Positions 6,626-28,800 of a stretch of DNA of 64,000 nucleotides are shown one piece after another. Positions within the stretch are counted from its first letter, which is position 1, and each line of letters starts with the position of its first letter. This DNA is from Lineus longissimus. Taxonomy: Eukaryota > Nemertea > Pilidiophora > Heteronemertea > Lineidae. A program made the translations under genes and the position numbers. The notes below the pieces were generated by a model. It made no database searches and had not been told where the DNA came from. It saw only the letters and a program-made list of their open reading frames with translations. Location: assembly GCF_910592395.1 (NCBI RefSeq), contig NC_088310.1, positions 16,437,501 through 16,501,500 of the forward strand. The letters run 5' to 3'.

Positions 6626-7343
6626 GTAGGTTCTCCTAGCAAAGATACATTACCTTAGCCCATTACATAGCCTCGATTCGCTACGCTGTACATCGAACCT
6701 ATGTGCTACCTCGAAAAAAGCCAGGAATTCCAGCCCAATAACGCATTTAAGAAATTCCCCCCCCCCCAAACGAGGAGACAGACTAATGTGTATAACAAAT
6801 GGTGATTAATAACCAAATAACTCATGAATTCCTCAAATCCCTGTTATTCTTGCCTCTGATCGTAGGACGGGCCGAGTCGGAATAGGTTAATAGGATATGG
6901 GCCCGGGATTGTTCAACTACAGCACGCATAAGGTCTCATTAGGGAGGTTTTTTTTATTCATGCGCGCCCCCGTAGTTCCTAAAATCATTGATTTCTCGAT
7001 CCTCACAGTATGTCAGTGTTGATTCAGCAGTTGTTTTGGCAAAGACATGTTTTTCTGGAGTTTCTTCAACCTAGAGCGCTACTCAATAGGCAATTAACAA
7101 GAAACTACGCATTTACTGTTGTTGCCGTCGTATGTGTACACTGAACTTGGGATGTGCGTGGGCCCCGTGTTGAAATGCCGTCAGTGCCAGTTGCTGCGTT
7201 TTTCGCTAATTTGTGCAAAATTCAACATATCTCAAAAGTTCAATGGTTGACCCTCGCTTTTTTTAAATTTTTGTATAGCGTAACCAACTGTCTTTCATGG
7301 GAGAATGGTCACTATAAGAATTATTCAGGAAGAAATGTATAAT

Positions 7344-8971
7344 CACTCACACAACGTAGTGAGTGTAATGGTTACGTATGTATAAAGTGTAAACAAAATT
7401 CATATATCCATCATGTCCATCGAATCTGAAAAAAATTGTGCAGACCCATGACAATTCTGGTTCCGGTACAGTTTGTCGCATTCCATACGGGCAGCGCGTT
7501 GGCCGATCCTGCATTCACGACGCACCGCACCCACAGTTACCACGTCGGACGTGTTTCCCATTGTTTCCTTCCTCGTGACGCAATTATTTCATGACGTCAT
7601 GAGCAATTGACCATTCACACAAGTAGATTTATTCACACCGGCGCCACTCAAGTGCAGGTGTGGGACATCATGTATTTAAAAATCGTCTGCTAGGGTCTCA
7701 CTAGCCAGTGCAATGGCCGGGCCTACCTGGCTCCACAAATGGCGCGACGTCATTTCATGCATACCCCTGTTCAAGTGGCTGTCGACCTTGCAGTATATCA
7801 CTCTCACACATAAACCTATACATTTCTGAATAGCTTGTCGCTTCTAGAATACATCTGGCCAGCTTTCATTGTTATCAAGTAATTCAGTCATGAGAACATG
7901 GGGGCAGCACAATACATGAGACACCCTGTACATCGATGAAAATTTTGAAAATTTCACCTTGCCGCCTTATAACTTGACAATTAACATGGATGGTGAAATA
8001 ATATTTTTAGAAACTTCTACTTATCACCTTGAGAAAGCCAAATAATAACAATTTTAAATTTTGATACCAAAATAGGGTGTCGTTGCGGCTTTTCTTTGAG
8101 CATTTTGACCTCGAAGTCTCACCTTGAGAACATGTGCACTCTGACAGGAACCAGTTCATGTCAACATCCGATTGAGCTATACATAGAATGCGAGGCCTGG
8201 TCACTGCGGACGTGCACAGAAGAAGCTGATATTTTCCTCAAATAATCGTCAGAGCTACCTCTTCACAAAATACCCAGGACACCGACATTTGAACATGCAG
8301 CAATAGCGATATGATAGGCTCATCTGTATCCATGGTAATCGCCTGAGATTGAAGAACTTTTTTTTTAAGGGGGACCAATGTTGATCTGATCACCACTGGC
8401 TAGTGAGACCTAGGGCATACAGGACAACGTCGGCCGAGACAGTTGTGACATTTCATTGCAGACAAAGAAAACGTCCTCTTCTTCTCGATTTACGTACTTT
8501 ACTTCAAAAAAGTCAGTTTTAACACTACTGCACAAATATAGAGTGGTCTTAAAGTTCCATTTGGATAGAGATTTGACGGACTGATTTGGAAATTCATTCC
8601 AACCATGCAACTGTTTCAGAAATGAGAAAAAGCTCCTGGGTGTCATGACATGCATTCAATTATTATTTCACCACAAAGAGCTGCTTCTGTCCGCAGATAT
8701 GAGACAGCTACCGGGGCGGGTACTATTTCTTTATGGGGCCTTATTGTTCAGCGTCTGCAAGGGATTCTATTTTTAGAGTCCAATGGGGGGGGGGGGGGGG
8801 CCTTCCCCCAATGTACTGACTAAAACCTGTCACTTTCAGGGAACGGGGGAGGGGGTTTGGGGGACTCATCCCCCAATGTACTGGCTAAATATGTCAGAAG
8901 GACGTGGGTTTGGGGGGCTCCCCCATGTCAAACAGTTGTGTGAGTTCACTAGAGCTTGCTCTTTACATATT
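7344..8971 (+). mobile_element. Helentron-like unit A1 (non-autonomous)
   Basis: The 5' end is cACTCACACAAC with the palindrome ACTCAC..GTGAGT. The 3' end carries the matching subterminal repeat GTTGTGTGAGTT, then the hairpin AGAGcttgCTCT (8951-8962), and finishes TACATATT. It contains three G-run blocks near 8780-8925. Internal subterminal repeats, a short hairpin close to the 3' end and absence of a target duplication are hallmarks of Helitron/Helentron-type rolling-circle elements. Without the 718-bp insertion at 7694-8411 it is about 907 bp long. It is inserted in family C at AAT^ATTTG and is followed directly, after one extra T, by unit A2. Confidence 0.7.
7694..8411. mobile_element. Family D MITE, 718 bp, TSD TAG
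   Basis: It has a 17-bp perfect terminal inverted repeat (GGTCTCACTAGCCAGTG at the left, its reverse complement at the right). TAG at 7691-7693 and 8412-8414 flanks it. The empty site is seen in sister units, for example near 9965 and 25130 (GTCTGCTAGGACATACAGG). The TIR resembles that of family C (GGTCTCRTTAGGGAG) in its first six bases, suggesting related transposases. It has no convincing coding sequence. Confidence 0.75.
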
Positions 8972-8972
8972 T

Positions 8973-10431
8973 AACTCACACAACGTAGTGAGTGTAATGG
9001 TTACGTATGTATAAAGTGTAAACAAAATTCATATATCCATCATGTCCATCGAATCTGAAAAAAATTGTGCAGACCCCTGACAATTCTGGTTCCCGTACAG
9101 TTTGTCGCATTCCATACGGGCCGCGCATTGGCCGATCCTGCATTCACGACGCACCGCACCCACAGTTACCACGTCGGACGTGTTTCCCATTGTTTTCTTC
9201 CTCGTGACGCAATTATTTCATGACGTCATGAGCCATTGACCATTCACACAAGTAGATTTATTCACACCGGCGCCACTGAAGTGCGGGTGTGGGACATCAT
9301 GTATTTAAAAATCGTCTGCTAGGGTCTCGTTAGGGAGTTTTTCCCAAATGTACGCGATGATGACGTGTCCCATTAACAGGACGTAACATCTATTTTAAAA
9401 TGCGTTTCCAAAGTGAATGCATGAGGACAATCCATTTGTGTCGTATATCACTGGAAACGCCCGATTCCCCTGATTTAGCAGGATGTTAAATCGGGCATTT
9501 TATTTCTTTAAATAAATCATAAGCGTCGCATTTGCTCCTAGCTCTGTTCACCATCCCAAATGGCAATATTGCCAATTGGGCCGGACAATCACGAAAAACC
9601 ACAAATATTCTACATTTCGTCCTGAATAATTCTTAGACAAAGAAAACGTGCTCTTCTTCTCGATTTACGTACTTTACTTCAAAAAAGTCAGTTTTAACAC
9701 TACTGCACAAATATAGAGTGGTCTTAAAGTTCCAATAGATAGAGATTTGACGGACTGATTTGGAAATTCATTCGATCCAGCCATGCAACTGTTTCAGAAA
9801 TGAGAAAAAGCTCCTGGGTGTCATGACATGCATGATGTGTCTAGCCTCTGCATTTTTGTACTCAGACATGTCAGAGGGTTTTCAACTTTCATATCATTGA
9901 AGAAATAATTCATTCCAATCTATAAGTATATCAATCACATCATTTATTTAAAAATCGTCTGCTAGGACATACAGGACAACGTCGGTGGAGACAGTTGTGA
10001 CATTTCAATTTTCATTGCATAGAGATTTGACGGACTAATTTGGAAATTCATTCCAACCATGCAACTGTTTCAGAAATGAGAAAAAGCTCCTGGGTGTCAT
10101 GACATGCATTCAATTATTATTTCACCACAAAGAGCTGCTTCTGTCAGCAGATATGAGACAGCTACCGGGGCGGGGACTATTTCTTTATGGGGCCTTATTG
10201 TTCAGCGTCTCCAAGGAAATCTATTTTAAGAGTCCAATGGGGGGGTTGGGGGGGGGGGGGCTTCCCCCCAATGTACTGACTAAAACCTGTCACTTTCAGA
10301 GAACGAGGGAGGGGGTTTGGGGGACTCATCCCCCAATGTACTGGCTAAATATGTCAGAAGGACGGGGGTTTGGGGGGCTCCCCCATGTCAAACAGTTGTG
10401 AGAGTTCACTAGAGCTTGCTCTTTACATATT
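8973..10431 (+). mobile_element. Helentron-like unit A2, with internal duplication and a captured family C piece
   Basis: Starts AACTCACACAAC and ends with hairpin AGAGcttgCTCT and TACATATT. It contains a truncated family C piece (9323 to about 9633, starting with the TIR after TAG) and a partial internal duplication of the unit core (the GGACATACAGGACAAC block and what follows). G-run blocks lie at about 10240-10385. It lies head-to-tail after A1, and its 3' end abuts the resumed family C sequence at 10432. Confidence 0.7.
9323..9633 (+). mobile_element. 5' part of a family C MITE inside unit A2
   Basis: Begins GGTCTCGTTAGGGAG right after TAG (9320-9322) and runs through the family C blocks to CCTGAATAATTCTTA, where it switches abruptly to unit A core sequence (GACAAAGAAAACG). 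The right end and right target duplication are lost by deletion. Confidence 0.65.
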
Positions 10432-10593
10432 ATTTGGGGTTTTTCGTGATTGTCTGGCCCAATTGGCAATATTGCCATTTGGGATGGGGTGAACAGAGCG
10501 AGGAGCAAATGCGACGCTTATGATTTATTTAAAGAAATAAAATGCCCGATTTAACATCCTGCAGAATCAGGGGAATTGGGCGTTTCCAGTGAT

Positions 10594-11433
10594 AACTCAC
10601 ACAACGTAGTGAGTGTAATGGTTACGTGTATGTATAAAGTGTAAACAAAATTCATATATCCATCATGTTTATCGAATCTGAAAAAATTTGTGCAGACCCA
10701 TGACAGTTCCGGTTCCGGTACAGTTTGTTGCATTCCATACGGGCCGCGCTTGCCGATCCTGCTTTCACGACGCACCGCAACCACAGTTACCATGATTCCC
10801 GTTGTTGACGCAATTATTTCATGACGTCATGAGCCATTGACCAATCACGCAAGTAGATTTATTCACACCGGCGCCACTGTCTTGAAATGTATCTAAAAAT
10901 CGTCTGCTAGAACATACAGGACAACAACGTCGGCGGAGACAGTTGTGACATTTCATTGCAGACGAAGTAAACGTCCTCTTCTTCTCGATTTACGTACTTT
11001 ACTTCAAAAAGTCAGTTTTAACACTACTGCACAAATATAGAGTGGTCTTAAAGTTCCATTTGGATAGAGATTTGACGGACTGATTTGGAAATTCATTCCA
11101 ACCATGCAACTGTTTCAGAAATGAGAAAAAGCTCCTGGGTGTTATGACATGCATTCAATTATTATTTACCACAAAGAGCTGCTTCTTCCAGCAGATATGA
11201 GACAGCTACCGGGGCGGGGACTATTTCTTTATGGGGCCTTATTGTTCAGCGTCTCCAAGGAATTCTATTTTTAGAGTCCAATGGGGGGGGGGCTTCCCCC
11301 CAATGTACTGACTAAAACCTGTCACTTTCAGAGAACGGGGGAGGGGGTTTGGGGGACTCATCCCCCAATGTACTGGCTATATATGTCAGAAGGACAGTTG
11401 TGTGAGTTCACTAGAGATTGCTCTTTACATATT
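10594..11433 (+). mobile_element. Helentron-like unit A3, 840 bp, compact copy
   Basis: Starts AACTCACACAAC and ends with the subterminal repeat GTTGTGTGAGTT, hairpin AGAGattgCTCT and TACATATT. It lacks the internal core duplication of A2, A4 and A5 and the third G-run block of A1 and A2. It forms the left edge of the 15-kb insertion. Confidence 0.7.
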
Positions 11434-11983
11434 AAGTGTTATTGTTGTCAAATTTAACTCCTTCACAGTCACAAGTGCAGATTGTGAATAAAGGTCATTC
11501 TTCTTTGACTGTGTCTCTATACTCATTTGATTGATAGTCTTTCAATACATCTGCATGACAATGATGACACCAAAAACCGATCTTGGGTTTCATCAGATTG
11601 GGTATCATCCTCAGTGAAGAAAAGGTGGGCTGAGATGTGGCAGTTTCACTGGCAAAGCACATACATGTATTGTTTTGATGTGATTAATCTTGTGGGTGGT
11701 TGTGACATTTAAGCATGTCACAAACACTGTTCATTGCGGGGAGGGGTCCACAAATATGGCATAATATGTTGATGCCAGCCAGAAGAAAGCTTTCATGTAG
11801 GTGTAGTGGCTGTGGGTAAAGATTTCAGGGTGTTTAGGGAGCACTTCGGGCATTGAAGACAAGAGAGATTGGCGGGCGACAAGGAATTAATACAACATCG
11901 CGACAAAAACGACGACCAAACTTGCATGCTGTTTTGTTTTTTCTTCAATGTCACGATTTCGTAACTAGAAATCTACTGCAAAA
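11434..11983. promoter_or_regulatory. Upstream region of NDUFAF4
   Basis: Single-copy-looking sequence between unit A3 and the NDUFAF4 start codon. It should contain the promoter and 5' untranslated region of that gene if the copy is active. No TATA box or CpG island is evident. Confidence 0.3.
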
Positions 11984-13198
11984 ATGGGGAAAACACTGTC
12001 AACGATCGGAAAGCGTGCTAGCCAAAGGTTCAATTTTGAAAATAGAGCTCAGAGAGCTATCGAAAAACAGAAAACGATCCCTAAAGCCGCACCCAGACAC
12101 CCATCAACAGTGGAGCAATTGAAAACCATTGAACGTGAGTACGATTACATGCACACCAACTACGGGGTGTTCCAAAATCGATGTAGGCCTACACTGATAC
12201 AGTGCAAGCTGGATGCTTTCCTCTTGCTTGGATCATGGTTGTTGCTTCACATTAAACTTGCAGCGCAGTGTGCCATCGTATACCGCAGTGTGAGTATCAT
12301 ACACTTTATGTATGCAATTTATTTATACACTTCATGATTATCATACACTTTACTCGAATCTCCAAATTTATTCTTTATGTTTTATTTCAGAACGATCAGA
12401 AATAAAAGAAGAAATTGACAGAAGGAATGAATCTTTGCTGGACAAGCTTAAGCAGGTCCGGATTGAATCTCATGGTCCGCCTCCTGAGGTATGTGAAAAG
12501 TCAATAACACTCTTGTCACAGCGCTTGTCACATCATGAACCATTGAGAAGTTCAAAGGCTTAATCTGAGAATTCAATTCGACCTCTCTGATCAGGACACC
12601 TCTCTATTAAGGACAGCACTTGTCAGTTCCGAGGGTGTCCTTAACATAGAGGTTCTACTATACTTTCTGTTCAGATGCTTTCACATTTCCAATTCTTCAG
12701 TCTCCTTATCTGATTTGAAATCATTAAAGGTATGTACCTACTGCATATACATTGTATAACCAAACTCCAAAATGACCAAAGTGTCATTCTTATTTCTAGA
12801 TTAAGTCTGCACGCCACCTCCCACAGAATAGAATATATGCCGGGGAGACAGAGTCGGGTTTTGAGGAGCCAAATGTCATACCGCCTGGAAAACTAACTGT
12901 ACGGACATTGATGGATGTTCTTGGAAAAGCTATGGTGGAACCAAAAACTTACACTGCGAGAGAAATTGCTGCTGAACATTCGCTCGATAGGCAAAAGGTT
13001 GAAAACATGTTGAAATATTTTGCCGCATTTAGTTTACATATTCCTAAGGCTGGAGAGGTACCTGTAGCAGGAAAACTTCGAAGCAGCGAAAAGGGGAGCG
13101 AAACTGTCGAGCTTGAGGACAAAACAACTATGCTGGAAGAAGGGAAAAAGGAATCTGGTTTTAAGATTAATATCTTAACAAAGAAACCAGAGGACTAA
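11984..13198 (+). CDS. NDUFAF4: NDUFAF4 homologue, complex I assembly factor 4 (3 exons)
   Basis: Exons are 11984-12134, 12391-12488 and 12800-13198. All introns are GT-AG and phases agree (1 then 0), giving 215 aa; human NDUFAF4 is 175 aa. The start MGK keeps the glycine at position 2 that is the myristoylation site reported in the family. The family signature follows: FNFENRAQRAIEK, then APRHPST, then EIKEEIDRRNESLLDKLKQV in exon 2. Exon 3 has the conserved GKLTVRTLMDVLGKA and a region ending in LKYFAAF. A C-terminal tail of about 45 charged residues is longer than in vertebrates. NDUFAF4 acts in mitochondria with NDUFAF3 in early assembly of the Q module of NADH dehydrogenase. The frame is intact, so this copy could be functional although it lies inside the 15-kb insertion. 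Confidence 0.9.
12577..12658 (-). repeat. Partial TA-flanked MITE, family E
   Basis: Lies in intron 2 of NDUFAF4. Contains GACCTCTCTGATCAGGACA, ACAGCACTTGTCAGT and the end AGAGGTTCTACT of the family seen complete at 43198-43375. Confidence 0.6.
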
Positions 13199-13579
13199 TC
13201 AGTGACTAAGACATTAACTTGTGTGCTATTGTATTGGGACATAGACATTGTTTGGCCAATCAGATGCTGACACTTGTACATTTTGAAGTTGAAATTTCAT
13301 TTTCTTAAAGGAACAGCGTTTCCTGACAGGGTTGCGTTGCAAGACTCGGCAATTATTGTTGATCATCAGATATCTGGTCGGGAAAGACACCTTGATTTCC
13401 AAGTTCACTGCTTATAAACAATGTGTATAAAAATTCAATTGTAAATGCACTCTAAATAGGAGTAAGAGTATAAAACCTGACAAATTGCAAAATTGACGCA
13501 AATGATCTCAATCATAGTTTAAATCCAGTTGAAGTAATAATTTATGTTGAAAAAAACTATGTCTTGGTTGTGCTTTTGA

Positions 13580-14420
13580 TTCAACCAGGTCTTTGTCCAC
13601 TGTGAAGACAGAAAGAAGCAGGTTCTTGCTTTCTGCGACGACAGAAAGACCAAAGTCCTTGTCTCTGGTGGAGACAGAATAACCCCGTCTTTGTCCGCTT
13701 TGGAGAGAAAAAAGAGCATATTGTTTGTCCTTGCTACCATGGTAACAGCTCAACCATCTTGACCCTCAATGTATTGACATTGCTAAGCTTTACAGACAAC
13801 GCTCGTCCAATGGGCGGAGGTAATGGAGGCAATTCTGCTGGTAGTTCAGTATGCAGATCAACCAGCTCTTTGTCCACTGTGGAATTGAAAAGAACTATTT
13901 GTGTCGCCTACAGACTTTGACTCGGAGGCAGCAAATAGTCATGAAGAAGAGCTCAGTCGTTGTCTAATGCGGCCAGGCTTGGGCAACATCAAAAAGTGAA
14001 ATAGTGAAGTCACAACCAAAGGCATATCCGGAGTACTTTTTGTCCACAGAAACAGAAGGACGAAGGATTTGTTTATGATGTATAGAACAATCATGTCCTT
14101 GTCCACTATCGAGACAGAAAGAACCAAGTTCATTGAGAACACACAAAACACAGTCATTGCCTACAGTGACGGCACAACACGTCTTTGTCTTACTATCAAG
14201 ACAGAAAGAAAACAGGTGGTTGTACACTGAGAAGAAATATACACTGTCCATGTCTACTGTGGAGACAAGACAATCGGGTCTTTGTCCGCTGTGGAGTAAG
14301 AAAGGAAACCAGGTGCTTGTACACTGTGAGGAAAGAAATGGACATTGTCCATGTCTGTGGTGGAGACGTTGGTGGGAGGACAACCACGTCCTTGTCCTCT
14401 ATGGGGACAGAAAGAACTGG
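13580..14420. repeat. Diverged minisatellite (GTCCACTGTGGAGACAGAAAG type)
   Basis: About 15 imperfect copies of a 45-60 bp unit built around CTTTGTCCACTGTGGAGACA and GAAAGAAAC/GCAGGT. The long open frames on both strands here (for example 14133-14721) are a by-product of the repeat and show no protein family. Lies between NDUFAF4 and the foldback. Confidence 0.7.
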
Positions 14421-14889
14421 GCGCTCACCCCACGTGACTTCATCGACGAGTGTGCGAAATCCTTTTGTTCGGCCTCATTCAGCCTTTTGTCGCCTCCTTG
14501 GTCGGTCGACTGGCTTCCCCTCCTGTCCATTTTGCTTTTCTCCGATTTTCGACCACAGTATTTTGTGTCTTTCCTCTCAGGCTTGCCTGAATCTCACACG
14601 GCTCTTTATCTATCTTTCTTCGGGTCACCCTAGGGAGCTTCTTCGCTCGGCTAGGGGGGACGGCATCGTAGCAGACCATTGGGGGGCGTGCTCGAGCCAG
14701 AGATATGAGATATATATATAACTGTCGCCTTGGGAGTCTTGCGTAGGCTCGCCAGTGAGCACAGTAGAGATGAATCGGGCGTTGCAGTTCCTCTCTGAAC
14801 GCGCCGATAGGCGACTATATAGGGGAAGTCACGCTCGACTATTTTTTAGTCTGATTCGAACTCTAAAATTTTCTATAATTTTACATCGC
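14421..14889. other. Spacer between minisatellite and foldback
   Basis: No gene recognised. C/T-rich with a short (AT)n tract near 14711-14720. I looked for upstream CRYL1 exons (Rossmann glycine motif) here and did not see one. Confidence 0.35.
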
Positions 14890-15140
14890 CTAAAGCCTGC
14901 ACCACACGGTGAAAATTTGCGTGATGCAAGTGACACGCGTGCATGTTGCGACAGGCAAATTCTCACTGTGTGGGGTCGTTTTTTGCTGCGTATCTTCCTC
15001 GCGTGTCGAGACGCAGCCGATCTAGCATGTTTGATATTTTCTCGACACGCGAGGAAGTTAATCACCGTGTGGGGGCTACCTGCAGCAATGTTGCGCGAGT
15101 TCGACGAATCACAACAAGCAGATCGGTCACATGATTTATA
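14890..15140 (+). repeat. Left arm of a 251-bp foldback (X)
   Basis: Starts CTAAAGCCTGCACCACACGG and ends CACATGATTTATA. Its reverse complement is at 21716-21967 with few differences. The arm itself contains two nested hairpins: CCACACGGTGA paired with TCACTGTGTGG, and TCCTCGCGTGTCGAGA paired with TCTCGACACGCGAGGA. Confidence 0.75.
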
Positions 15141-18100
15141 AGACCCCCTTTAGGAGGGGCTCTTAAGATACACGTGTGTGCGGGAGTATATAATGTAAAT
15201 GAAGTGAAATAAAGAGAGTAAATATTGTATATCCAACAAACATTTTTTTTTGGTTTTTCAAAATGGCGCTGAATAAATAAATCAGACCAGTTGTAGCGCT
15301 GAATTATAAATCAGACCAGTTGTAACAGGTTACGAGAACATCTAATTTAAATCTTCATGGGAATTCGCTACATATGCCTAAGAAATTGGCCAATTATATT
15401 GATATTGTTATTAGAGAAATATCCGTCCTAAATAATGACAGAAAAGGGTGGTTTATTTCAATTTTGTGGCGACATGGTCGAGGTCACGTGACATAAACAA
15501 AACAATCGCACACACCCGTCCAAAAAAGGCACTTTAAGAAAAACAAATACGTTTTTCCTGCTTAAAACCACACTGACGACTAAGTTATTTTAGTCTACTA
15601 CCCAAATCTGAAGTATCAAAATGAATTACAAACTAGAACTAGCTCTATTTAGCAAAAGTTGCGTGAAAAATTCGGGTGAGCGACATTCTGAACCCTAGCG
15701 GCCAATAATTAAACTACTTTCAGCCGTCTGCTCCGGTCTCGTTAGGGAGTTTTTCCCACATGTACGCGATGATGACGTGCCCCATTAACAGGACGTAACA
15801 TCTATTTTAAAATGCGTTTCCAAAGTGAATGCATGAGGACAATCCATTTATGTGTCGTATATCACTGGAAACGCTCGATTCCCGTGAATAAGGACAATCA
15901 CAATGTATTACATTACCAAAACAAAAATGTGTCGGAAGGAACTATATGGATGGTCCCATCGCACCCGCCCCCCTCCAGCAGTATGACACAGAAGGGCTAG
16001 TTGACTGTCCACCGGGGGGGGGGGGGGTTGGGGGGAGCTTCCCCCAACGCACTGGTAAAAACCTATGTCGACGGAGGGGGGTTTGGGGGGTGTCCCCCCA
16101 TTGTAACAGTTGTAGTTGTTAGAGCTGGCACTTAACATATGCTCGTAGGGGGGTTCGGGGGAGCTCCCCCGACCTAAAGGGGGGCTCACTAAGTCCTTGA
16201 CTTTACATATTAAGACCCCCTTTAGGAGGGGCTCTTAAGATACACGTGTGTGCGGGAGTATATAATGTAAATGAAGTGAAACAAAGAGAGTAAATATTGT
16301 ATATCCAACAAACATTTTTTTTTGGTTTTTCAAAATGGCGCTGAATAAATAAATCAGACCAGTTGTAGCGCTGAATTATAAATCAGACCAGTTGTAACAG
16401 GTTACGAGAACATCTAATTTAAATCTTCATGGGAATTCGCTACATATGCCTTAAAAATTGGTCAATTACATTAATATTTTTATTAGAGAAATATCCGTCC
16501 TAAATAATGACAGAAAAGGGTGGTTTAGGCCCTATTTCAATTTTGTGTCGACATGGTCGAGGTCACGTGAGTCGTGACATAAACAAAACAATCGCACAGA
16601 CCCGTCCAAAAAAGGCACTTTAAGAAAAACAAATACGTTTTTCCTGCTTAAAACCACACTGACGACTAAGTTATTTTAGTCTACTACCCAAATCTGAAGT
16701 ATCAAAATGAATTACAAACTAGAACTAGCTCTATTTAGCAAAAGTTGCGTGAAAAATTCGGGGGAGCGACATTCTGAACCCTAGCGGCCAATAATTAAAC
16801 TACTTTCAGCCGTCTGCTCCGGTCTCGTTAGGGAGTTTTTCCCAAATGTACGCGATGATGACGTGCCCCATTAACAGGACGTAACATCTATTTTAAAATG
16901 CGTTTCCAAAGTGAATGCATGAGGACAACCCATTTGTGTCGTATATCACTGGAAACGCCCGATTCCCGTGAATAAGGACAATCACAATGTATTACATTAC
17001 CAAAACAAAAATGTGTCGGAAGGAACTATATGGATGGTCCCATCGCACCCCCCCCCTCCAGCAGTATGACACAGAAGGGCTAGTTGACTGTCCACCGGGG
17101 GGGGGGGGTTTGGGGGGAGCTTCCCCCCAACGCACTGGTAAAAACCTATGTTGACGGAGGGGGGTTTGGGGGGTGTCCCCCCATTGTAACAGCTGTAGTT
17201 ATTAGAGCTTGCACTTAACATATGCTCGTAGGGGGGTTCGGGGGAGCTCCCCCGACCTAAAGGGGGGCTCACTAAGTCCTTGACTTTACATATTAAGACC
17301 CCCTTTAGGAGGGGCTCATAAGATACACGTGTGTGCGGGAGTATATAATGTAAATGAAGTGAAATAAAGAGAGTAAATATTGTATATCCAACAAACAATT
17401 TTTTTTGGTTTTTCAAAATGGCGCTGAATAAATAAATCAGACCAGTTGTAGCGCTGAATTATAAATCAGACCAGTTGTAACAGGTTACGAGAACATCTAA
17501 TTTAAATCTTCATGAGAATTCGCTACATATGCCTAAGAAATTGGCCAATTATATTGATATTTTTATTAGAGAAATATCCGTCATAAATAATGACAGAAAA
17601 GGGTGGTTTTATATCAATTTTGTGTCGACATGTCGAGGTCACGTGACATAAACAAAACAATCGCACACACCCGTCCAAAAAAGGCACTTTAAGAAAAACA
17701 AATACGTTTTCCCTGCTTAAAACCACACTGACGACTAAGCTATATTGGTCTACTGCCCAAATCTGAAGTATCAAAATGAATCACAAACTAGAACTAGCTC
17801 TATTTAGCTATAGTTGCGTGAAAAATTCGGGTGAGCGACATTCTGAACCCTAGCGGCCAATAAATAAACTACTTTCAGCTGTCCGCTCCGGTCTCGTTAG
17901 GGAGTTTTTCCCAAATGTACGCGATGATGACGTGCCCCATTAACAGGACGTAAAATGCGTTTCCAAAGTGAATGCATGAGGACAATCCATTTAAGTGTCG
18001 TATATCACTGGAAACGCCCGATTCCCGTGAATAAGGACAATCACAATGTATTACATTACCAAAACAAAAATGTGTCGGAAGGAACTATATGGATGGTCCC

Positions 18101-21100
18101 ATCGCACCCCCCCCCCTCCAGCAGTATGACACAGAAGGGCTAGTTGACTGTCCACCGGGGGGGTTTGGGGGGAGCTTCCCCCCAACGCACTGGTAAAAAC
18201 CTATGTCGACGGAGGGGGGTTTGGGGGGTGTCCCCCCATTGTAACAGCTGTAGTTGTTAGAGCTTGCACTTAACATATGCTCGTAGGGGGGTTCGGGGGA
18301 GCTCCCCCGACCTAAAGGGGGGCTCACTAAGTCCTTGACTTTACATATTAAGACCCCCTTTAGGAGGGGCTCTTAAGATACACGTGTGTGCGGGAGTATA
18401 TATTGTAAATGAAGAGAAATAAAGAGAGTAATTATTGTATATCCAACAAACATTTTTTTTTGGTTTTTCAAAATGGCGCTGAATAAATAAATCAGACCAG
18501 TTGTAGCGCTGAATTATAAATCAGACCAGTTGTAACAGGTTACGAGAACATCTAATTTAAATCTTCATGGGAATTCGCTACATATGCCTAAGAAATTGGC
18601 CAATTATATTGATATTTTTATTAGAGAAATATCCGTCATAAATAATGACAGAAAAGGTGGTTTTATATCAATTTTGTGTCGACATGGTCGAGGTCACGTG
18701 ACATAAACAAAACAATCGCACACACCCGTCCAAAAAAGGCACTTTAAGAAAAACAAATACGTTTTCCCTGCTTAAAACCACACTGACGACTAAGTTATAT
18801 TGGTCTACTGCCCAAATCTGAAGTATCAAAATGAATCACAAACTAAAACTAGCTCTATTCAGCTATAGTTGCGTGAAAAATTCGGGTGAGCGGCGTACAT
18901 TCTGCACCCTAGCGGCCAATAATTAAACTACTTTCAGCTGTCTGCTCCGGTCTCGTTAGGGAGTTTTTCCCAAATGTACGCGATGATGACGTGCCCCATT
19001 AACAGGACGTAACATCTATTTTTAAAATGCATTTCCATCGTGAATGCATAAGGACAACCCATTTGTGTCGTATATCACTGGAAATGCCCGATTCCCGTGA
19101 ATAAGGACAATCACACTGTATTACATTACCAAAACAAAAATGTGTCGGAAGGAACTATGATTGGTCCCAACATGGGGGGTTGGGGGGGGGGGGGGGGGGG
19201 GTTTGGGGGGGTTTCCCCCTCCATTGTACTGGGTAAAAACGTTACGCTATCGTAGGGGGGTTCGGGGGTGCTCCCCCGACCTAAAGGGGGGCTCACTAAG
19301 TCCTTGACTTTACATATTAAGCCCCCCTTTAGGAGGGGCTCTTACGATACACGTGTGTGTGGGAGTATATACTGATTTGATGAGAAATAAAGAGAGTAAA
19401 TATTGTATATCCTACAAACAATTTTTTTTGGTATTTTTCTGAATTAACTCCGTTGAGTTTACCGATTTCTCCGCGATCTTCCGGTGGTGGTTGCTATCCC
19501 ATTGATTGAAATTAATTTAAATTAATTTAAATCTTCATGGGAATTCGCTACATCATATGCCTAAGAAATTGGCCAATTATATTAATATTTTTATTAGAGA
19601 AATATCCGTCCTAAATAATGACAGAAAAGGGTGGTTTATTTCAATTTTGTGGCGACATGATCGAGGTCACGTGACATAAAAACAAAACAATCGCACACAC
19701 CCGTCCAAAAAAGGCACTTTAAGAAAAACAAATACGTTTTTCCAGCTTAAAACCACACTGACGACTAAGTTATATTGGTCTTCTGCCCAAATCTGAAGTA
19801 TCAAAATGAATCACAAACTAGAACTAGCTCTATTTAGCAAAAGTTGCGTGAAAAATTCGGGTGAGCGACATTCTGCACCCTAGCGGCCAATAATTAAACT
19901 ACTTTCAGCCGTCTGCTCCGGTCTCGTTAGGGAGTTTTTCCCAAATGTACGCAATGATGACGTGCCCCATTAACAGGACGTAACATCTATTTTAAAATGC
20001 GTTTCCAAAGTGAATGCATGAGGACAACCTATTTGTGTCGTATATCACTGGAAACGCCCGATTCCCGTGAATAAGGACAATCACAATGTATTACATTACC
20101 AAAACAAAAATGTGTCGGAAGGAACTATATGGATGGTCCCATCGCACCCCCCCCCCCTCCAGCAGTATGACACAGAAGGGCTAGTTGACTGTCCACCGGG
20201 GGGGGGGTTTGGGGGGAGCTTCCCCCCAACGCACTGGTAAAAACCTATGTCGACGGAGGGGGGTTTGGGGGGTGTCCCCCCATTGTAACAGCTGTAGTTG
20301 TTAGAGCTTGCACTTAACATATGCTCGTAGGGGGGTTCGGGGGAGCTCCCCCGACCTAAAGGGGGGCTCACTAAGTCCTTGACTTTACATATTAAGCCCC
20401 CCTTTAGGAGGGGCTCTTACGATACACGTGTGTGTGGGAGTATATACTGATTTGATGAGAAATAAAGAGAGTAAATATTGTATATCCTTCAAACAATTTT
20501 TTTTGGTATTTTTCTGAATTAACTCCGTTGAGTTTACCGATTTCTCCGCGATCTTCCGGTGGTGGTTGCTATCCCATTGATTGAAATTAATTGAAATTAA
20601 TTTAAATCTTCATGGGAATTCGCTACATCATATGCCTAAGAAATTGGCCAATTATATTAATATTTTTATTAGAGAAATATCCGTCCTAAATAATGACAGA
20701 AAAGGGTGGTTTATTTCAATTTTGTGTCGACATGGTGGTCGAGGTCACGTGACATAAAAACAAAACAATCGCATACACCCGTCCAAAAAAGGCACTTTAA
20801 GAAAAACAAATACGTTTTTCCAGCTTAAAACCACACTGACGACTAAGTTATTTTAGTCAACTACCCAAATCTGAAGTATCAAAATGAATCACAAACTAGA
20901 ACTAGCTCTATTTAGCTATAGTTGCGTGAAAAATTCGGGTGAGCGACGTACATTCTGCACCCTAGCGGCCAATAATTAAACTACTTTCAGCCGTCTGCTC
21001 CGGTCTCGTTAGGGAGTTTTTCCCAAATGTACGCGATGATGACGTGCCCCATTAACAGGACGTGAATGCATGAGGACAATCCATTTAAGTGTCGTATATC

Positions 21101-21450
21101 ACTGGAAAACGCCCGATTCCCGTGAATAAGGACAATCACAATGTATTACATTACCAAAACAAAAATGTGTCGGAAGGAACTATATGGATGGTCCCATCGC
21201 ACCCCCCCCTCCAGCAGTATGACACAGAAGGGCTAGTTGACTGTCCACCGGGGGGGGGGGGGGGGTTTGGGGGAGCTTCCCCCCAACGCACTGGTAAAAA
21301 CCTATGTCGACGGAGGGGGGTTTGGGGGGTGTCCCCCCATTGTAACAACTGTAGTTGTTAGAGCTTGCACTTAACATATGCTCGTAGGGGGGTTCGGGGG
21401 AGCTCCCCCGACCTAAAGGGGGGCTCACTAAGTCCTTGACTTTACATATT
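15140..21450 (+). mobile_element. Six-unit head-to-tail array of Helentron-like family B
   Basis: Units 15140-16211, 16212-17294, 17295-18349, 18350-19318, 19319-20393 and 20394-21450 (1072, 1083, 1055, 969, 1075 and 1057 bp) abut without spacer at ACATATT^AAGACC or ^AAGCCC. Each starts with AGACCCCCTTTAGG (or a variant) and carries its inverted partner CCTAAAGGGGGGCT near the 3' end, followed by the hairpin AAGTCcttGACTT and TTACATATT. Each also carries G-run blocks that fold against C-runs and, in the middle, the first roughly 130 bp of MITE family C including its TIR. Units 5 and 6 share a different 5' segment (GAATTAACTCCGTTGAG) instead of the AAATGGCGCTGAATAAA segment of units 1-4. Unit 4 has lost most of the middle G-run blocks. 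No coding sequence. Confidence 0.75.
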
Positions 21451-21451
21451 A

Positions 21452-21715
21452 GGTCAGTCACATGATACCAAAATGGCAGCGCCCGGGAACTGTCAAATCC
21501 TATGAGAAGTATTATGGACCAAGAAGACCAAATTGCCCTTATTCTCCTGCTGTTACTCCGTCGGAGGCGGCGGCGGAGGCGGCGCCGCGTGGACCGTAGT
21601 CTTTGGACAAGGCCATGGATTCAGAGAAGAGAGGATAAGGGGGCCTATGCAAATCTAATTGCTGAATTGCTGTCGACTCAATGGGAGCTGCCATTTTGGT
21701 ATCATGTGACTGACC
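21452..21715. mobile_element. Harbinger MITE in the foldback centre
   Basis: Terminal inverted repeats of 29 bp, starting GGTCAGTCACATGATACC and matched exactly at the right end. TATA occurs on both sides once the family B array is removed (15137-15140 and 21716-21719). It retains the start of a HARBI1-like frame, so it is a deletion derivative of an autonomous Harbinger. Confidence 0.7.
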
Positions 21716-21720
21716 TATAA
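21502..21720 (+). pseudogene. N-terminal remnant of a HARBI1-like transposase
   Basis: A 72-codon frame beginning MRSIMDQEDQIALILLLLLR, followed by a run of ten arginines and then RSLWTRPWIQRREDKGAYAN. This acidic start, leucine/arginine-rich stretch and 'W.RPW..RR...G.Y..L..EL' pattern is how many animal Harbinger nucleases begin. Directly afterwards the frame runs into the right TIR, so the DDE nuclease core is missing. It cannot encode an active transposase. Confidence 0.6.
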
Positions 21721-21967
21721 ATCATGTGACCGATCTGCTTGTTGTGATTCGTCGAACTCGCGCAACATTGCTGCAGGTAGCCCCCACACGGTGATTAACT
21801 TCCTCGCGTGTCGAGAAAATATCAAACATGCTAGATCGGCTGCGTCTCGACTCGCGAGGGAAGATACGCAGCAAAAAACGACCCCACACAGTGAGAATTT
21901 GCCTGTCGCAACATGCACGCGTGTCACTTGCATCACGCAAATTTTCACCGTGTGGTGCAGGCTTTAG
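21716..21967 (-). repeat. Right arm of foldback X
   Basis: Reverse complement of 14890-15140, from TATAAATCATGTGACC to GTGCAGGCTTTAG. With the inner insertions removed the two arms meet at the perfect palindrome GATTTATAAATC. The arm ends only 131 bp before the first CRYL1 exon. Confidence 0.75.
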
Positions 21968-22098
21968 CCAGACAGTGCACACATATATATTGGGCAAGCT
22001 TACGTCAGAGTCACCCTACGAGCTGTCAGTTCGCCCTTGCGTAATTTTAGAATTTTCGGGCGATTCCTGGCCATGCGGGCAAGAGCAAAATTTCTAAG

Positions 22099-23046
22099 CC
22101 GGCAAGAACACGTGCATTAATGGAGAAAATCGGTCAAGCGCCAGTTGTCCTGAATCGGGAGATACCCGGATTTGCTGTGAATCGTATCCAGTATGCAATA
22201 TTAAATGAGTGCTGGAGGCTGGTAGAGGTGAGTGACTCATAAATCTGCAGTCATTTTTCTGTGAATTTGTTGAAATGAGAGGGGTTCTATCTTGGCATTC
22301 TGGTTGTGACGTTATGTCCTCAGAAGACAGTCTGTGAAACAATGTCAGGTTTTGTCATAGCGTGGTAATGTTTGGCTGAACTTGGTGTACTTGCACATTC
22401 GACAAAAATTGACCTTTGTTTGATATTAGTAAGATGGGAAAAGGACCCTTAAGCATCGTCACGTTCCTTTCAGGATGGTGTGATGAATGTGAAAGATGTT
22501 GATACTGTGATGTCCCATGGCCTTGGACCCAGATATGCTTTTATAGGGCCACTGGAGGTAGCTCATCTTAATGCAGAGGGTAAGTGTAATGAGGATTTCA
22601 GTTATAATGACTGGACTTCAGGCCAATGCAAGAAAGTTATCATGGATATATTCCTTTACATTGAACTTGTCTCCAATTAATCCAGTTAGAGACATCAGTA
22701 ACAATGCGTCCTTGCAGGTGTTAGCAGAGTTGAAAACACTGTATTCACAAAGTTTAACTAATGTGATTGAGGGGATCAAGATCAAGTCATCAAGGATATG
22801 TTTTGCAATCGCTGTCTTTCAGGTATGGAGAACTACTGTGAAAGGTACTGGCAAAGTATTCACTCAGTTAGTAACACGTTCGGTCCCGTACCAAAGATGA
22901 CCCCTGATAATGTTGTCAACACCACCATCCACCCGCAGTTATGTGACATGGTACCGATGGAGAAGATGATCGAGAGGAGGAAATGGAGAGACGACTCACT
23001 AGCACGTCTGGCTAAACTGAAAAAGGAGCGAGCCAAAAAGGAGTGA
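22099..23046 (+). pseudogene. CRYL1: CRYL1 (lambda-crystallin / L-gulonate 3-dehydrogenase), last three exons only
   Basis: Exons 22099-22227 (acceptor inferred at CTAAG), 22474-22579 and 22823-23046 are joined by GT-AG introns in phases 0 and 1, ending at TGA. The product reads [14 protein letters not shown], then [45 protein letters not shown] and a C-terminal RRKWRDDSLARLAKLKKE. This matches the C-terminal helical, substrate-binding and dimer domain of CRYL1 in order (roughly the last 125 of about 320 residues). The N-terminal NAD-binding Rossmann domain and the catalytic histidine region are absent. Upstream lies the transposon foldback, and I found no earlier exon in the window. The remaining exons show no stop or frameshift, so truncation is recent, or upstream exons lie far away across the array. 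Alone it could not be an active dehydrogenase. Confidence 0.8.
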
Positions 23047-23303
23047 AAAGGGCGTTAGCAGCCTTATTATTAAAGATAGTTTTTTTTGGACAATGGAAAC
23101 TGATGAGAAATAGTGATGATACTGTTTTGAATCTGTATAGTCTGTCAGTTTGATCTCTCTGTAGGCGACCTCTTCATAAGGACAGCATCGTTTTAATCAA
23201 GGCTCCTCTAGGCCTACATATGAATAGGTGCTAGAATGTGGATGTATTATTCCAATCTTGTTACAACTACTGGTACACACTGAGATGTTACATTTTAAAT
23301 TAT
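23047..23303. other. CRYL1 3' flank
   Basis: Likely the 3' untranslated region; no canonical AATAAA noted. A decayed family E fragment (GATCTCTCTGTAGGCGACC, then TAAGGACAGCATC) lies near 23152-23200. Confidence 0.35.
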
Positions 23304-24438
23304 AACTCACACAACGTAGTGAGTGTAATGGTTACGTGTGTGTATAAAGTGTAAACAAAATTCATATATCCATCATGTCCATCGAATCTGAAAAAATCTG
23401 TGCAGACCCATGACAGTTCCGGTTCCGGTACAGTTTGTTGCATTCCATACGGGCCGCGCTTGCCGATACTGCTTTCACGACGCACCGCAACCACAGTTAC
23501 CATGATTCCCGTTGTTGACGCAATTATTTCATGACGTCATGAGCCATTGACCAATCACGCAAGTAGATTTATTCACACCGGCGCCACTGTCTTGAAGTGT
23601 ATCTAAAAATCGTCTGCTAGAACATACAGGACAACAACGTCGGCGGAGACAGTTGTGACATTTATTGCAGACGAAGTAAACGTCCTCTTCTTCTCGATTT
23701 ACGTACTTTACTTCAAAAAGTCAGTTTTAACACTACTGCACAAATATAGAGTGGTCTTAAAGTTCCATTTGGATAGAGATTTGACGACTGATTTGGAAAT
23801 TCATTCCAACCATGCAACTGTTTCAGAAATGAGAAAAAGCTCCAGGGTGTCATGACATGCATGATGATGTGTCTTGCCTCTGCATTTTTGTACTCAGGCA
23901 TGTCAGAGGGTTTTCAATTTTCATATCATTGAAGAAATAATTCATTCCAATCTACAAGTATATCAATCACATCATTTATTTAAATATCGTCTGCTAGGAC
24001 ATACAGGACAACGGCGGTGGAGACAGTTGTGACATTTTAATTTTCATTGCATAGAGATTTGACGGACTGATTTGGAAATTCATTCCAACCATGCAACTGT
24101 TTCAGAAATGAGAAAAAGCTCCTGGGTGTCATGACATGCATCAATTATTATTTCACCACAAATAGCTGCTTCTTCCAGCAGATATGAGACAGCTACCGGG
24201 GCGGGGACTATTTCTTTATGGGGCCTTATTGTTCAGCGTCTGCAAGGAATTCTATTTTTAGAGTCCAATGGGGGGGGGGGGGGGGGGGGGGGGGGGCCTT
24301 CCCCCCAATGTACTGACTAAAACCTGTCACTTTCAAGGAATGGGGGAGGGGGTTTGGGGGACTCATCCCCCATTGTACTGGCTATATATGTCAGAAGGAC
24401 AGTTGTGTGAGTTCACTAGAGATTGCTCTTTACATATT
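23304..24438 (+). mobile_element. Helentron-like unit A4
   Basis: Starts AACTCACACAACG and ends with hairpin AGAGattgCTCT and TACATATT. It has a duplicated core (GGACATACAGGACAAC block twice) and a G-run of about 27 bases at 24270-24297, the longest homopolymer-like tract in the window. Confidence 0.7.
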
Positions 24439-25555
24439 AACTCACACAACGTAGTGAGTGTAATGGTTACGTGTATGTATAAAGTGTAAACAAAATTCAT
24501 ATATCCATCATGTCCATCGAATCTGAAAAAATTTGTGCAGACCCATGACAGTTCCGGTTCCGGTACAGTTTGTTGCATTCCATACGGGCCGCGCTTGCCG
24601 ATCCTGCTTTCACGACGCACCGCAACCACAGTTACCATGATTCCCGTTGTTGACGCAATTATTTCATGACGTCATGAGCCATTGACCAATCACGCAAGTA
24701 GATTTATTCACACCGGCGCCACTGTCTTGAAGTGTATCTAAAAATCGTCTGCTAGAACATACAGGACAACAACGTCGGCGGAGACAGTTGTGACATTTCA
24801 TTGCAGACGAAGTAAACGTCCTCTTCTTCTCGATTTACGTACTTTACTTCAAAAAGTCAGTTTTAACACTACTGCACAAATATAGAGTGGTCTTAAAGTT
24901 CCATTTGGATAGAGATTTGACGGACTGATTTGGAAATTCATTCCAACCATGCAACTGTTTCAGAAATGAGAAAAAGCTTCTAGGTGTCATGACATGCATG
25001 ATGTGTCTTGCCTCTGCATTTTTGTACTCAGACATGTCAGAGGGCTTTCAACTTTCATATCATTGAAGAAATAATTCATTCCAATCTACAAGTATATCAA
25101 TCACATCATTTATTTAAAAATCGTCTGCTAGGACATACAGGACAACGTCGGTGGAGACAGTTGTGACATTTCAATTTTCATTGCATAGAGATTTGACGGA
25201 CTGATTTGGAAATTCATTCCAACCATGCAACTGTTTCAGAAATGAGAAAAAGCTCCTGGGTGTCATGACATGCATTCAATTATTATTTCACCACAAAGAG
25301 CTGCTTCTGTCAGCAGATATGAGGCAGCTACCGGGGCGGGGACTATTTCTTTATGGGGCCTTATTGTTCAGCGTCTCCAAGGAATTCTATTTTTAGAGTC
25401 CAATGGGGGGGGGGCTTCCCCCCAATGTACTGACTAAAACCTGTCACTTTCAGAGAACGGGGGAGGGGGTTTGGGGGACTCATCCCCCAATGTACTGGCT
25501 ATATATGTCAGAAGGACAGTTGTGTGAGTTCACTAGAGATTGCTCTTTACATATT
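24439..25555 (+). mobile_element. Helentron-like unit A5
   Basis: Head-to-tail with A4, with no base between the 3' end TACATATT and the next 5' end AACTCAC. Same duplicated core as A4. Its 3' end is the right edge of the 15-kb insertion, joined to family C sequence ATACGACAC. Confidence 0.7.
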
Positions 25556-25807
25556 ATACGACACAAATGGGTTGTCCTCGTGTATTCACTTTAAAATAGA
25601 TGTTACGTCCTATTAATGGGGCACGTCATCATCGCGTACATTTGGGAAAAACTCCCTAACGAGACCTAAGAGGCGTGCAGAGACGGACTGGATCGGGAAT
25701 GTCACGGCCGGCGTGGAATTGGTGCGCGTTAGGTTAATTGAGACAAATTTGTTGGCACACATTGCCAGTTTTTCTGAGCCTACGAATTCAAACTTGGTTT
25801 CGATGAT

Positions 25808-28800
25808 ATGAGTGCGCTGGTAGATCTTCCACCAAGTGCTAGGAGCAAGTGGATCAGTGAAAACACTGAAAATATTCTGTCGGTCCGTTATGTTCGAGCC
25901 CCGTTTGGACCGGGAATGCCAGGAGAGACTGTCGACACTGCATATATCAACTTGCTTGTTCACTCGAACTCGGCACCAGCGCCAACATCCGATTTGTTCA
26001 GACTGTTGCGCTTGGATGAGCATGACAGGTGTCGGCCTGGTCAGAATAGCAGTAGCACCAGGCCTGCACCCTCAGCCAACACTAAGCCTGGGCCTAAAAC
26101 AATGTCTACCATGCCCGACAAATTGATAAAAGATTATAAGAAGGTTTTTGAAGTTATAAAGGCATTCAATGCAAGTCGGGCTGATTCTGCATTTCTCAGC
26201 AACCGAAGACGAAGAGTAGCAGCAGAAAGGAGCAAGGCCAAGAAGTTAAAAAGGGACTTTGTCTCTGGACTGTTGGTACCCGGGTTGGATGTCAATGCTG
26301 CTGATGACAATGACCATACCGATGATGATGTTGAAGAAGACGAAAACCGAGGAGAGAGAATGCTGTTCCGTGAGGATGAGACATTTCCTGAGGAACAGGC
26401 AGGATTGCCAATGGCTGTTTTAAAACGTGATATTGATATTTGTTTTCGTGCCATAGAGGAGGCAAAGCTTAGGATGATGGAAAAGGAGAATATGCAGAAG
26501 TACAACAGAGAATACATTTATCAAACTATCGGCAGGTATGGGACTGTTTATTTGCTAGTGTTACATCCTCAATACTCATCCAGGGATGTTTCAGGAGTAT
26601 TTCTAGTGATAAAGGGTAGGTGGCGCCACCATCAGTTCAATACCAGGTTCCTTTCAGGTTTTCTGAGGGTTGGGGATTCTTCCTGGTAACAAACCATTCA
26701 TTGTGAAATCCAATGAATGCATGGAATGTGGTCATCTGAGAGATAACGATTCATACTGGTGATAAGCCATTTAATGTGAAATCAAATGAATGTGATCATC
26801 TGAGAGATAACGATTCATACTGGTGATAAGCCATTTAATGTGAATTCAAATGAATGTGATCAGCTGAGAGATAACGATTCATACTGGTGATAAGCCATTT
26901 AATGTGAAATCAAATGAATGTGATCATCTGAGAGCAACGATTCATACTGGTGATAAGCCATTTAATGTGAAATCAAATGAATGTGGTCATCTGAGAGATA
27001 ACGTTAGCGATTCATACTAGTGATAAACCATTAAAATGTGAAATCAAATGAATGTGGTCAACTGAGATAATAATTCATACCAGTGATAAACCATTAACCC
27101 TTTGCCTACTGAGCCACTACCCACCTGGGACACGAGAGCACTTTTTCCACAGTAACTGTTAGAAATGCCGTGAGTACTCACCATTACTATGCATTCACTT
27201 AAAACGCAATTTCTTTGGAGGCGTACCCTGTATGCGTGACGTGTCCTGGGATAGCAAATTACTGCATACGGGCTACGCATTAAGTAGGCAAAGGGTTAAA
27301 ATGTGAAATCAAACGAATGTGGTCATCTGAGAGATAACGATTCATACTGGTGATAAGCCATTAAAATGTGAAATCAAATGAATGTGGTCATCTGAGTGAT
27401 AACGATTCATACTGGTGATAAGCCATTAAAATGTGAAATCAAATGAATGTGGTCATCTGAGTGATAACGATTCATACTGGTGATAAGCCATTAAAATGTG
27501 AAATCAAATGAATGTGGTCATCTGAGTGATAACGATTCATACTGGTGATAAGCCATTAAAATGTGAAATCAAATGAATGTGGTCATCTGAGAGAAACGAT
27601 TCATACTGGTGAAGCCATTAAAATGTGAAATCAAATGAATGTGATTATCTGAGAGATGACGATTCATACTAGTGATAAACCATTTAATCTGAAATCAAAT
27701 GAATGTGGTTATCTGAGAGATAACGATTCATAGTGAAAACCATTTAATCTGAATTCAAATGATGAATGTGGTCATCTGAGGGATGAATTCATATTGGAGA
27801 TAAACCAGAGTTGACATGAATGAAAGGTTAGCAGGGTGTACACTGGCAACAGTCAAACATAAGACGGTCTCTCAGAAAATTTCCCTGGGAAGAGCAGTGC
27901 GGTGCCCTTTCATTGAATGTAAAGCGCCTACGCTGAATGCTGCTCTATTGTCATACCCTAACTCAGACAGTGAGACAAAATCAATGCATCTCTCTAACTG
28001 TACTTCCGTATATCCCCTTCAACTTTAAACTTGCTGACGCATCATCTGCCTTTACCTTCCATCCAACCACTATCACTGTTGAAGAGTAAACTATAGAAAG
28101 CATTGAAAATTGTTTGAAATACGGTTTACCCGTGAGAGATTGATTAACTGGATGTATCACAAGTGACAAAATTTCTGTGCCGAAATATTGCCACATGACC
28201 TATATCGGAGATTTAAATCGGCTGTTAAAGGGACAAGTATCTTGGCACCAAAAACAGATGTCGGCCATGTTTTGAAAAATGATGTCATACCATGTGAAAA
28301 TCCAAGAAGGACGTCCTCGGGTCGCCGACAGGTCTGGTACCTGTAAAATTTACGCACCTCGGTGCAATACAGGTCGATATGACGTAACATACAATTTTGT
28401 GACGTCATACGATGTAAATGGCGGCTTCCATGGGCCAGTGAGATTTTTTTGGCGCGAATGGTTAGCCAAACGTAAATGGGCCCAAAGAAGTCATATGCAA
28501 CCTGATATCTGCTCAGAAGTTTCTGGGTCGTTATAAATGCTCGCTGTGACTACAGTAATGAAAAGCAGTGTGGCTCTAATCTACTTACTCTTTAACATCC
28601 AAAGTCAAAACCTCCACGTCTCATTTCATCTACCACTATAAAATCATTCCACGGTGAGCTCAATGTCCCCAGGACATTTCATTTTCGGACTCCTTCAAGC
28701 TGCAGGATAATGGAGAAAGGAAACAAATAAGGCAATGTCTCGGAGGGTGAATTCGGATTTGGAGTCTGGAAAAAAGATTTGTCCGGTAAATGACCTTGTT

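Follow-up and report, generated by a model that had tools for sequence, protein, structure and literature searches.

How does an intact nuclear gene, introns included, come to lie together with the tail of a second gene in the middle of a transposon? The question is raised by a stretch of 64,000 nucleotides from Lineus longissimus (GCF_910592395.1, NC_088310.1; C3:16437501-16501500, the contigs being labelled C1-C17 and so on), hereafter the window, in which an insert at 10594..25555 on the plus strand carries a complete copy of NDUFAF4, a complex I assembly gene, and the 3' exons of CRYL1. The insert starts and finishes with copies of a repeated unit, here called A, and interrupts an inverted-repeat element, here called M. 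The genome comprises 391 Mb in 30 contigs. Judged from sequence comparison, NDUFAF4 and the CRYL1 tail are copied from C5 to C3, that is, to another chromosome, and the insert is a gene duplication of the circle type, in rotated order and with Helitron2-like units at its borders.

The window copy of NDUFAF4 (11984..13198, plus strand) consists of three exons (11984-12134, 12391-12488 and 12800-13198) separated by GT-AG introns. Its 215 codons match PF06784 with E=6.1e-43, and the DNA copied with the gene includes 550 bp upstream of the start codon. CRYL1 is represented by its 3' exons (22103..23046, plus strand; 22104-22227, truncated on the 5' side, 22474-22579 and 22823-23046); it is cut within an exon, leaving residues that match 168-311 of human CRYL1 (3f3s; E=2.9e-46). 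The original prediction of one complete intron-containing gene beside a truncated second one is thus borne out. In the rest of the window, tblastn with a human CRYL1 query detected no 5' exon (best remaining match E=1.2), and such a location of the missing exons was rejected. An ATG at 22120, in frame with the CRYL1 exon, could start a 145-amino-acid C-terminal piece of CRYL1, and at 22073-22120 ten codons from a repeat-borne ATG are joined out of frame to the same exon.

Both genes have their source on C5. NDUFAF4 is complete genome-wide in the window and on C5 only (all 8 candidates scored); its other matches are a fragment of exon 3 (C5:10930799-10930954), which contains stops and lies in opposite orientation about 18 kb from the donor gene, and one match with E=0.5. 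Four loci account for the 18 matches to CRYL1 (19 of 19 candidates scored): besides the 3' part in the window there is a pair near C5:2.68 Mb, and C5:10914570-10916755 holds the gene complete. As this last gene matches human CRYL1 one exon after another across residues 11-315, whereas that of the window is cut inside an exon, copying ran from C5 to the window. A look for other NDUFAF4 and CRYL1 loci, as originally suggested, has thus located the source, at C5:10909209-10915530; the donor then imagined, with A units flanking both genes, was not found. The donor locus is retained, with CRYL1 and an open NDUFAF4. The NDUFAF4 frames of the window and C5, both open, show four amino-acid-changing and two silent differences, too few for a judgement on selection, and intron 2 is longer by 369 bp in the C5 copy.

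On the minus strand of C5 the donor order is complete CRYL1, a single A (10914294-10913166), NDUFAF4 and downstream DNA to 10909209. The insert reads A3, NDUFAF4 and downstream DNA, then the CRYL1 3' exons, A4 and A5, which are the donor pieces rotated. In a comparison of the window with C5:10905000-10934999, a region that carries the segment of about 6 kb once, the donor-derived DNA at 11434..14893 (plus strand) corresponds to C5 from 10913165 down to 10909347 on the minus strand, and that at 21966..22104 (plus strand) ends at C5:10909209, within a multi-copy repeat. Positions 22103-23303 correspond to C5 from 10915530, inside a CRYL1 exon, down to the DNA that borders the donor A on its 5' side. 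The sequences next to A3 on its 3' side and next to A4 on its 5' side are the two flanks of the single donor A; leaving aside the A units found at either end, the ends of the copy adjoin each other in the donor.

Given the rotated order, no single linear piece of C5 suffices in one pass. An end-joined circle, a tandem duplication in the donor, or one backward template switch can each produce it. The circle-closing joint would lie at 22103..22104, where C5:10909209 meets C5:10915530 through a 2-bp microhomology: it reads CCGGCA/AGAACACG, from CCGGCATTTG and CCCAAGGACACG, with CA common to both, and beyond CA no homology was seen by eye in 91 bases on each side. When a query of 266 bp around the joint was matched against the genome, both arms were present in the window's own match alone, out of 22. 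Nineteen further places carry the 120 bp that precede the joint, with 93-98% identity, and the left end of the circle is contained in a repeat of about 837 bp at C5:10908978-10909814 (comparison of the 3 of 5 loci on the plus strand, the other two being on the minus strand). A host gene at this left end was considered and rejected in view of that recurrence and of the position of the joint within the repeat.

Between the first two donor-derived pieces lies a transposon of about 7.07 kb that is absent from the donor (14894..21965, give or take a few bases) and has terminal inverted repeats around AGCCTGCACCACACGGTG. It carries six tandem units of a second kind, B (15140..21450, plus strand), with a 3' end CTTTACATATT like that of A and a fragment of M in each. 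Without this transposon and the three A units the foreign DNA amounts to about 4.8 kb, and differs from the donor by 68 substitutions in 4,768 aligned bases, or by 33 in about 4,330 outside two intron blocks beside indels. The insert is probably not of very recent date, since the donor lacks the 7-kb transposon with six B units that the insert contains.

The target was M itself, a 685-bp element with terminal inverted repeats (TIRs) GGTCTCRTTAGGGAG and TAA on either side. Its three pieces, all on the plus strand, lie at 6932..7343 (starting with the TIR GGTCTCATTAGGGAG and collinear with M copies on C13 and C17), 10432..10593 (ending in CCAGTGAT) and 25556..25666 (ending in CTCCCTAACGAGACC), between matching TAA target duplications at 6929..6931 and 25667..25669. 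Two interruptions, 162 bp apart, separate them: a tandem of two Helitron2/Helentron-like units, A1-A2, lodged in M after TAAT (7344..10431, plus strand), and the insert, between the bases CCAGTGAT^ATACGAC. As the ends of M are complete and flanked by TAA on both sides, M predates the insert and its pieces are one copy. By direct reading, CCAGTGAT ends at 10593 and is followed from 10594 by AACTCACACAACG, the first bases of A3 (also written AACTCACAC), and on the right CTTTACATATT ends at 25555 and ATACGACAC follows from 25556. The flanks of the insert are thus neighbouring bases of a single M copy, as the original prediction had it, and the site is unbroken in the M on C13, in an M that lies within an A on C17, in a diverged reversed copy at 161-517 of the window, and in another reversed copy at 9323-9635. 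What had been called a miniature inverted-repeat transposable element (MITE) is indeed an inverted-repeat element, but in fact a full M with TAA duplications, interrupted twice. A 3-bp target duplication is a trait of the PIF/Harbinger superfamily; M has TIRs and duplications of this length (TAA in the window, TTA and TAG on C17, ATA on C13). The claim that the insert itself lacks a target duplication fits an insertion between T and A, but a 2-bp TA duplication would look identical.

The exact 20 bases of the empty site occur 1,022 times in the genome, M fragments within B units included; a share of B-like units in this number is suggested by series spaced about 1,060 bp. Of the filled left junction, taken as an exact string of 28 bases, there are two instances: one is that of the window, and at the other, C17:2243529, a lone A sits at the identical base of another M.

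The A units of the insert, all on the plus strand, are the short-form A3 (10594..11433, 840 bp) and the long-form A4 (23304..24438, 1,135 bp) and A5 (24439..25555, 1,117 bp). The junctions confirm that the insert begins with the 5' end of one A and finishes with the 3' end of another. We collected 36 A copies with both ends from loci fetched around the best matches; 35 of the 36 start with ACTCACAC and 35 end with TTACATAT, a uniformity that is partly due to their having been chosen by their ends. A second A directly adjoins in 11 of the 36. Near-terminal inverted repeats were found by eye, ACTCACACAAC at the 5' end and GTTGTGTGAGT about 27 bp from the 3' end. The string AGAG-ATTG-CTCT can be read 8 bp from the end of A, where folding of 52 bases chose a different pairing, and the 3' end of B folds into AAGTC-CTT-GACTT. 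Most copies have T^A at the target, and TNAT precedes 23 of 34 distinct 5' flanks (a script count leaving out tandem-internal flanks).

Near-terminal inverted repeats, a tandem habit and the lack of a long coding frame are common to A and B units, and the first two features resemble those of HINE/Helentron elements (PMC4067079). In the mite elements of that account the 3' inverted repeat stands 38-60 bp from the end, against about 27 bp in A, and Helentrons are reported there to target TT, against T^A. The target TNAT^A is that stated in the text for Fusarium FoHeli1/2, where a figure legend gives TNAT and T (PMC5148889). No autonomous partner with A-type ends was found, one Helitron family having been examined (two copies, without TTTACATAT in 9.9 kb); A is for this reason termed Helitron2/Helentron-like, and membership is not claimed. 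The genome gave at least 46 matches to A (40 of 1,502 first-look candidates scored, with a query that included part of M), and the places occupied by A perhaps number hundreds or more. Two Helitron copies, at C9:11277098-11284559 (L066) and C17:3511154-3518615 (L067), are identical over 7,462 bp and contain an open frame of 2,032 codons; from this identity it follows that rolling-circle elements have been very recently active in this genome. At another locus (L040, C1:12249000-12258000) the flanks are the same for three A units, which recur about every 2.58 kb; a longer A-containing unit has here been multiplied in tandem, in a way that rolling-circle copying might bring about.

How, then, did the copy enter M? 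A5 and the donor A, which differ at 4 of 1114 sites, are closest relatives, and a 27-base haplotype is confined to these two among the 36 copies. A3 differs at 4 of 837 sites from a copy on C11 (L044), with which alone it shares a 24-base haplotype (2/36; 12/36 have the exact alternative, the rest neither string). A4 has a third haplotype, found in 6 of the 36 copies, A4 included. A tree of the 36 copies, with A positions 531-744 and 956-989 left out, joins A3 to the C11 copy with a support of 97 and A5 to the donor A with 74. By these haplotypes and this tree, A3 is of a different A lineage from the donor A, and A5 of the donor lineage. The idea that A3 is a donor A with a private internal deletion was rejected, since point changes are common to A3 and the C11 copy and not to the donor A; a deletion of the A3 type could recur between internal 95-bp repeats.

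Because A5 is nearest to the donor A while A3 is of another lineage, we favour recombination with a resident A. The segment C5:10909209-10915530, about 6 kb in length and comprising the final exons of CRYL1, a single A and the entire NDUFAF4, would have been copied or cut out, and its ends joined via the 2-bp microhomology into a circle. This circle would have entered C3 at an A already resident in M, by homologous recombination between its own A and the resident one, with a crossover near the 3' end of A. Each end of the copy would thereby have come to bear an A, and the order of the donor would have been rotated. A4 would be a further A gained beside A5, before or after the event, and the 7-kb B-carrying transposon would have inserted into the copy, most simply at a later time. 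We regard it as very likely that a physical circle was the intermediate; entry by homologous recombination with a resident A, and not by a rolling-circle transposase, is probable; and the whole, a circle from C5 entering at a resident A in M, is on balance the explanation that we consider best. Recombination between A units had been one of the two routes originally put forward, and it gains support here, with an additional step that had not been foreseen: the donor piece would first have been circularised, or would have undergone something equivalent.

The lone A at the identical base of M on C17 is a precedent for such a resident. That the resident came from a family of A-bearing M elements was rejected: the exact left junctions number two, and the tree places the C17 A with A1 and A2 rather than with A3, so that independent insertion at a favoured TGAT^A site is the likelier course. 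The branch of the C17 A is long, and an M is nested in this A.

Several points weigh against entry at a resident A. A3 and A5 are identical from A position 886 on, and with informative sites absent from there to the 3' end the predicted crossover is hidden. A copies may swap sequence by gene conversion, the haplotype counts are based on the 36 fetched copies, and the grouping of A5 with the donor A has a support of 74. A4 is unexplained by a circle with a single A, and requires an extra insertion or a circle with two. The filled M site is rare, with its two exact left junctions against 1,022 empty strings. The exact boundaries between A3, M and A5 would be equally expected if a transposase had inserted a composite; acting on a donor haplotype that bore the array A4-A5-A3, a transposase could have achieved the entry in one step. 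The circle, for its part, is inferred, a tandem duplication in the donor or a single backward template switch yielding the same joint.

The main rival to recombination with a resident A is rolling-circle transposition from the circle, in which a Helitron2-type transposase would have made one turn from the 5' end of an A to the 3' end of an A, and placed the product in M between T and A. Each outer border coincides exactly with an end of an A, TGAT^A as a target agrees with the preference of A for TNAT, and matches to Rep-type proteins (PF14214) are plentiful in the genome, numbering at least 151 (best 150 of 217 candidates scored). Helraiser circles are reported to transpose and can bypass the 3' end (PMC4778049), and the Fusarium group of Helitron2 elements includes joined-end forms and inserts after TNAT (PMC5148889). 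However, a single donor A predicts that A3 and A5 are copies of one sequence, and the lineages observed differ; a donor array A4-A5-A3 would be needed, which is not in the assembly; and the one Helitron family examined for a partner with A-type ends does not supply it. We therefore consider transposition possible, but rather unlikely.

Another route would dispense with a free circle: a tandem duplication on C5, or a single backward jump with the 2-bp microhomology, after which the DNA from the first A through the second would have moved to M. This would yield an identical joint and order, and a 2-bp microhomology suits template switching, but C5:10905000-10934999 has the segment once, and A3 and A5 are again of different lineages, so that this route is improbable. 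An assembly artefact or chimeric contig is very improbable: repeats do stand at both boundaries, where false joins usually arise, and the joint at 22103 has repeat sequence as its left arm, but the window contains no N, the insert differs from the donor at the 68 sites mentioned, the 7-kb transposon is in the insert only, and both TAA duplications of M survive. The giant gene-carrying Helentron of the original prediction, which would have captured both genes linearly by reading past its 3' end, accounts for the exact A ends on either side but was rejected as next to impossible, since the donor genes lie on opposite sides of one A (CRYL1 - A - NDUFAF4), the captured DNA is not collinear with them and is unreadable in one pass, and NDUFAF4 has no third complete copy in the genome.

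A1 holds an element of about 717 bp at 7694-8410, with ends GGTCTCACTAGCCAGTG, TAG on both sides and a GGTCTC start like that of M. A2 (at 9323-9635) and all six B units (at 15735-21125) contain a reversed, truncated M starting at the same M end; in B, the M fragment became part of the multiplied unit. Right after M comes a stop-to-stop frame of 303 codons (25778-26689) without a Pfam match at E<=0.1, and beyond it, at 26724-27807, a tandem repeat of 65 bp.

In human, tilapia, yeast and cattle, rotated order is usually taken to reflect a circle (PMC7450558, PMC3245284, PMC3420103). In the human segmental duplications attributed to circular DNA by Chicote et al. 2020 (PMC7450558), an order A-B/C-D becomes B-A/D-C while the ancestral locus is kept, the joints have 1-2 bp microhomologies or short indels, and most breakpoints lie in interspersed, mutually non-homologous repeats. 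The Lineus case is like these in its rotated order, retained donor, microhomology joint and circle whose left end lies in a repeat. It differs in size, about 6 kb against the more than 20 kb given for the human cases, and in that its circle opens at transposon ends, with A on both sides and a target within another transposon, whereas the human breakpoints are described as having no homology that would permit homologous recombination or classical transposon-like mobilisation (PMC7450558). The vasa duplication of Nile tilapia, via a 28-kb circle (Fujimura et al. 2011, PMC3245284), similarly brought a whole gene with introns to a new place in rotated order; that account describes no transposon ends where the circle copy opened, and suspects a LINE fragment (long interspersed nuclear element) for a copy that is not rotated. 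The KIT translocations of cattle (Durkin et al. 2012, as described in PMC7450558 and PMC3420103) passed through a circular intermediate of about 500 kb, with a 2-bp microhomology at its joint as here and a return presumed to be by homologous recombination; there the homology would be the ancestral locus, whereas here it would be a repeated A unit. Among the open-access papers surveyed, we found no circle-borne gene duplication opened at the ends of a rolling-circle transposon. The unusual feature is that the circle opened exactly at such ends; circular intermediates themselves are already known.

Among the points raised in this literature are how circles integrate without homologous recombination (PMC7450558) and how reintegration sites are chosen, which was said to remain to be seen (PMC3420103). 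At the locus described here, the donor, the closing joint, the opening point and the target are known to the base, and both the opening point and the target are sequences of mobile elements. We propose that repeated transposon units serve the re-entry of circles, either as homology or as ends. The locus also shows one way of duplicating a complete complex I assembly gene of the nucleus, introns and 550 bp of upstream DNA included. One might speculate, tentatively, that rolling-circle units act as entry ports, any circle bearing an A being able to re-enter at an A or at an A target, through a transposase or through homology. If true, this would give the genome a standing route by which intact genes, with their introns and promoters, are copied between chromosomes in rotated order.

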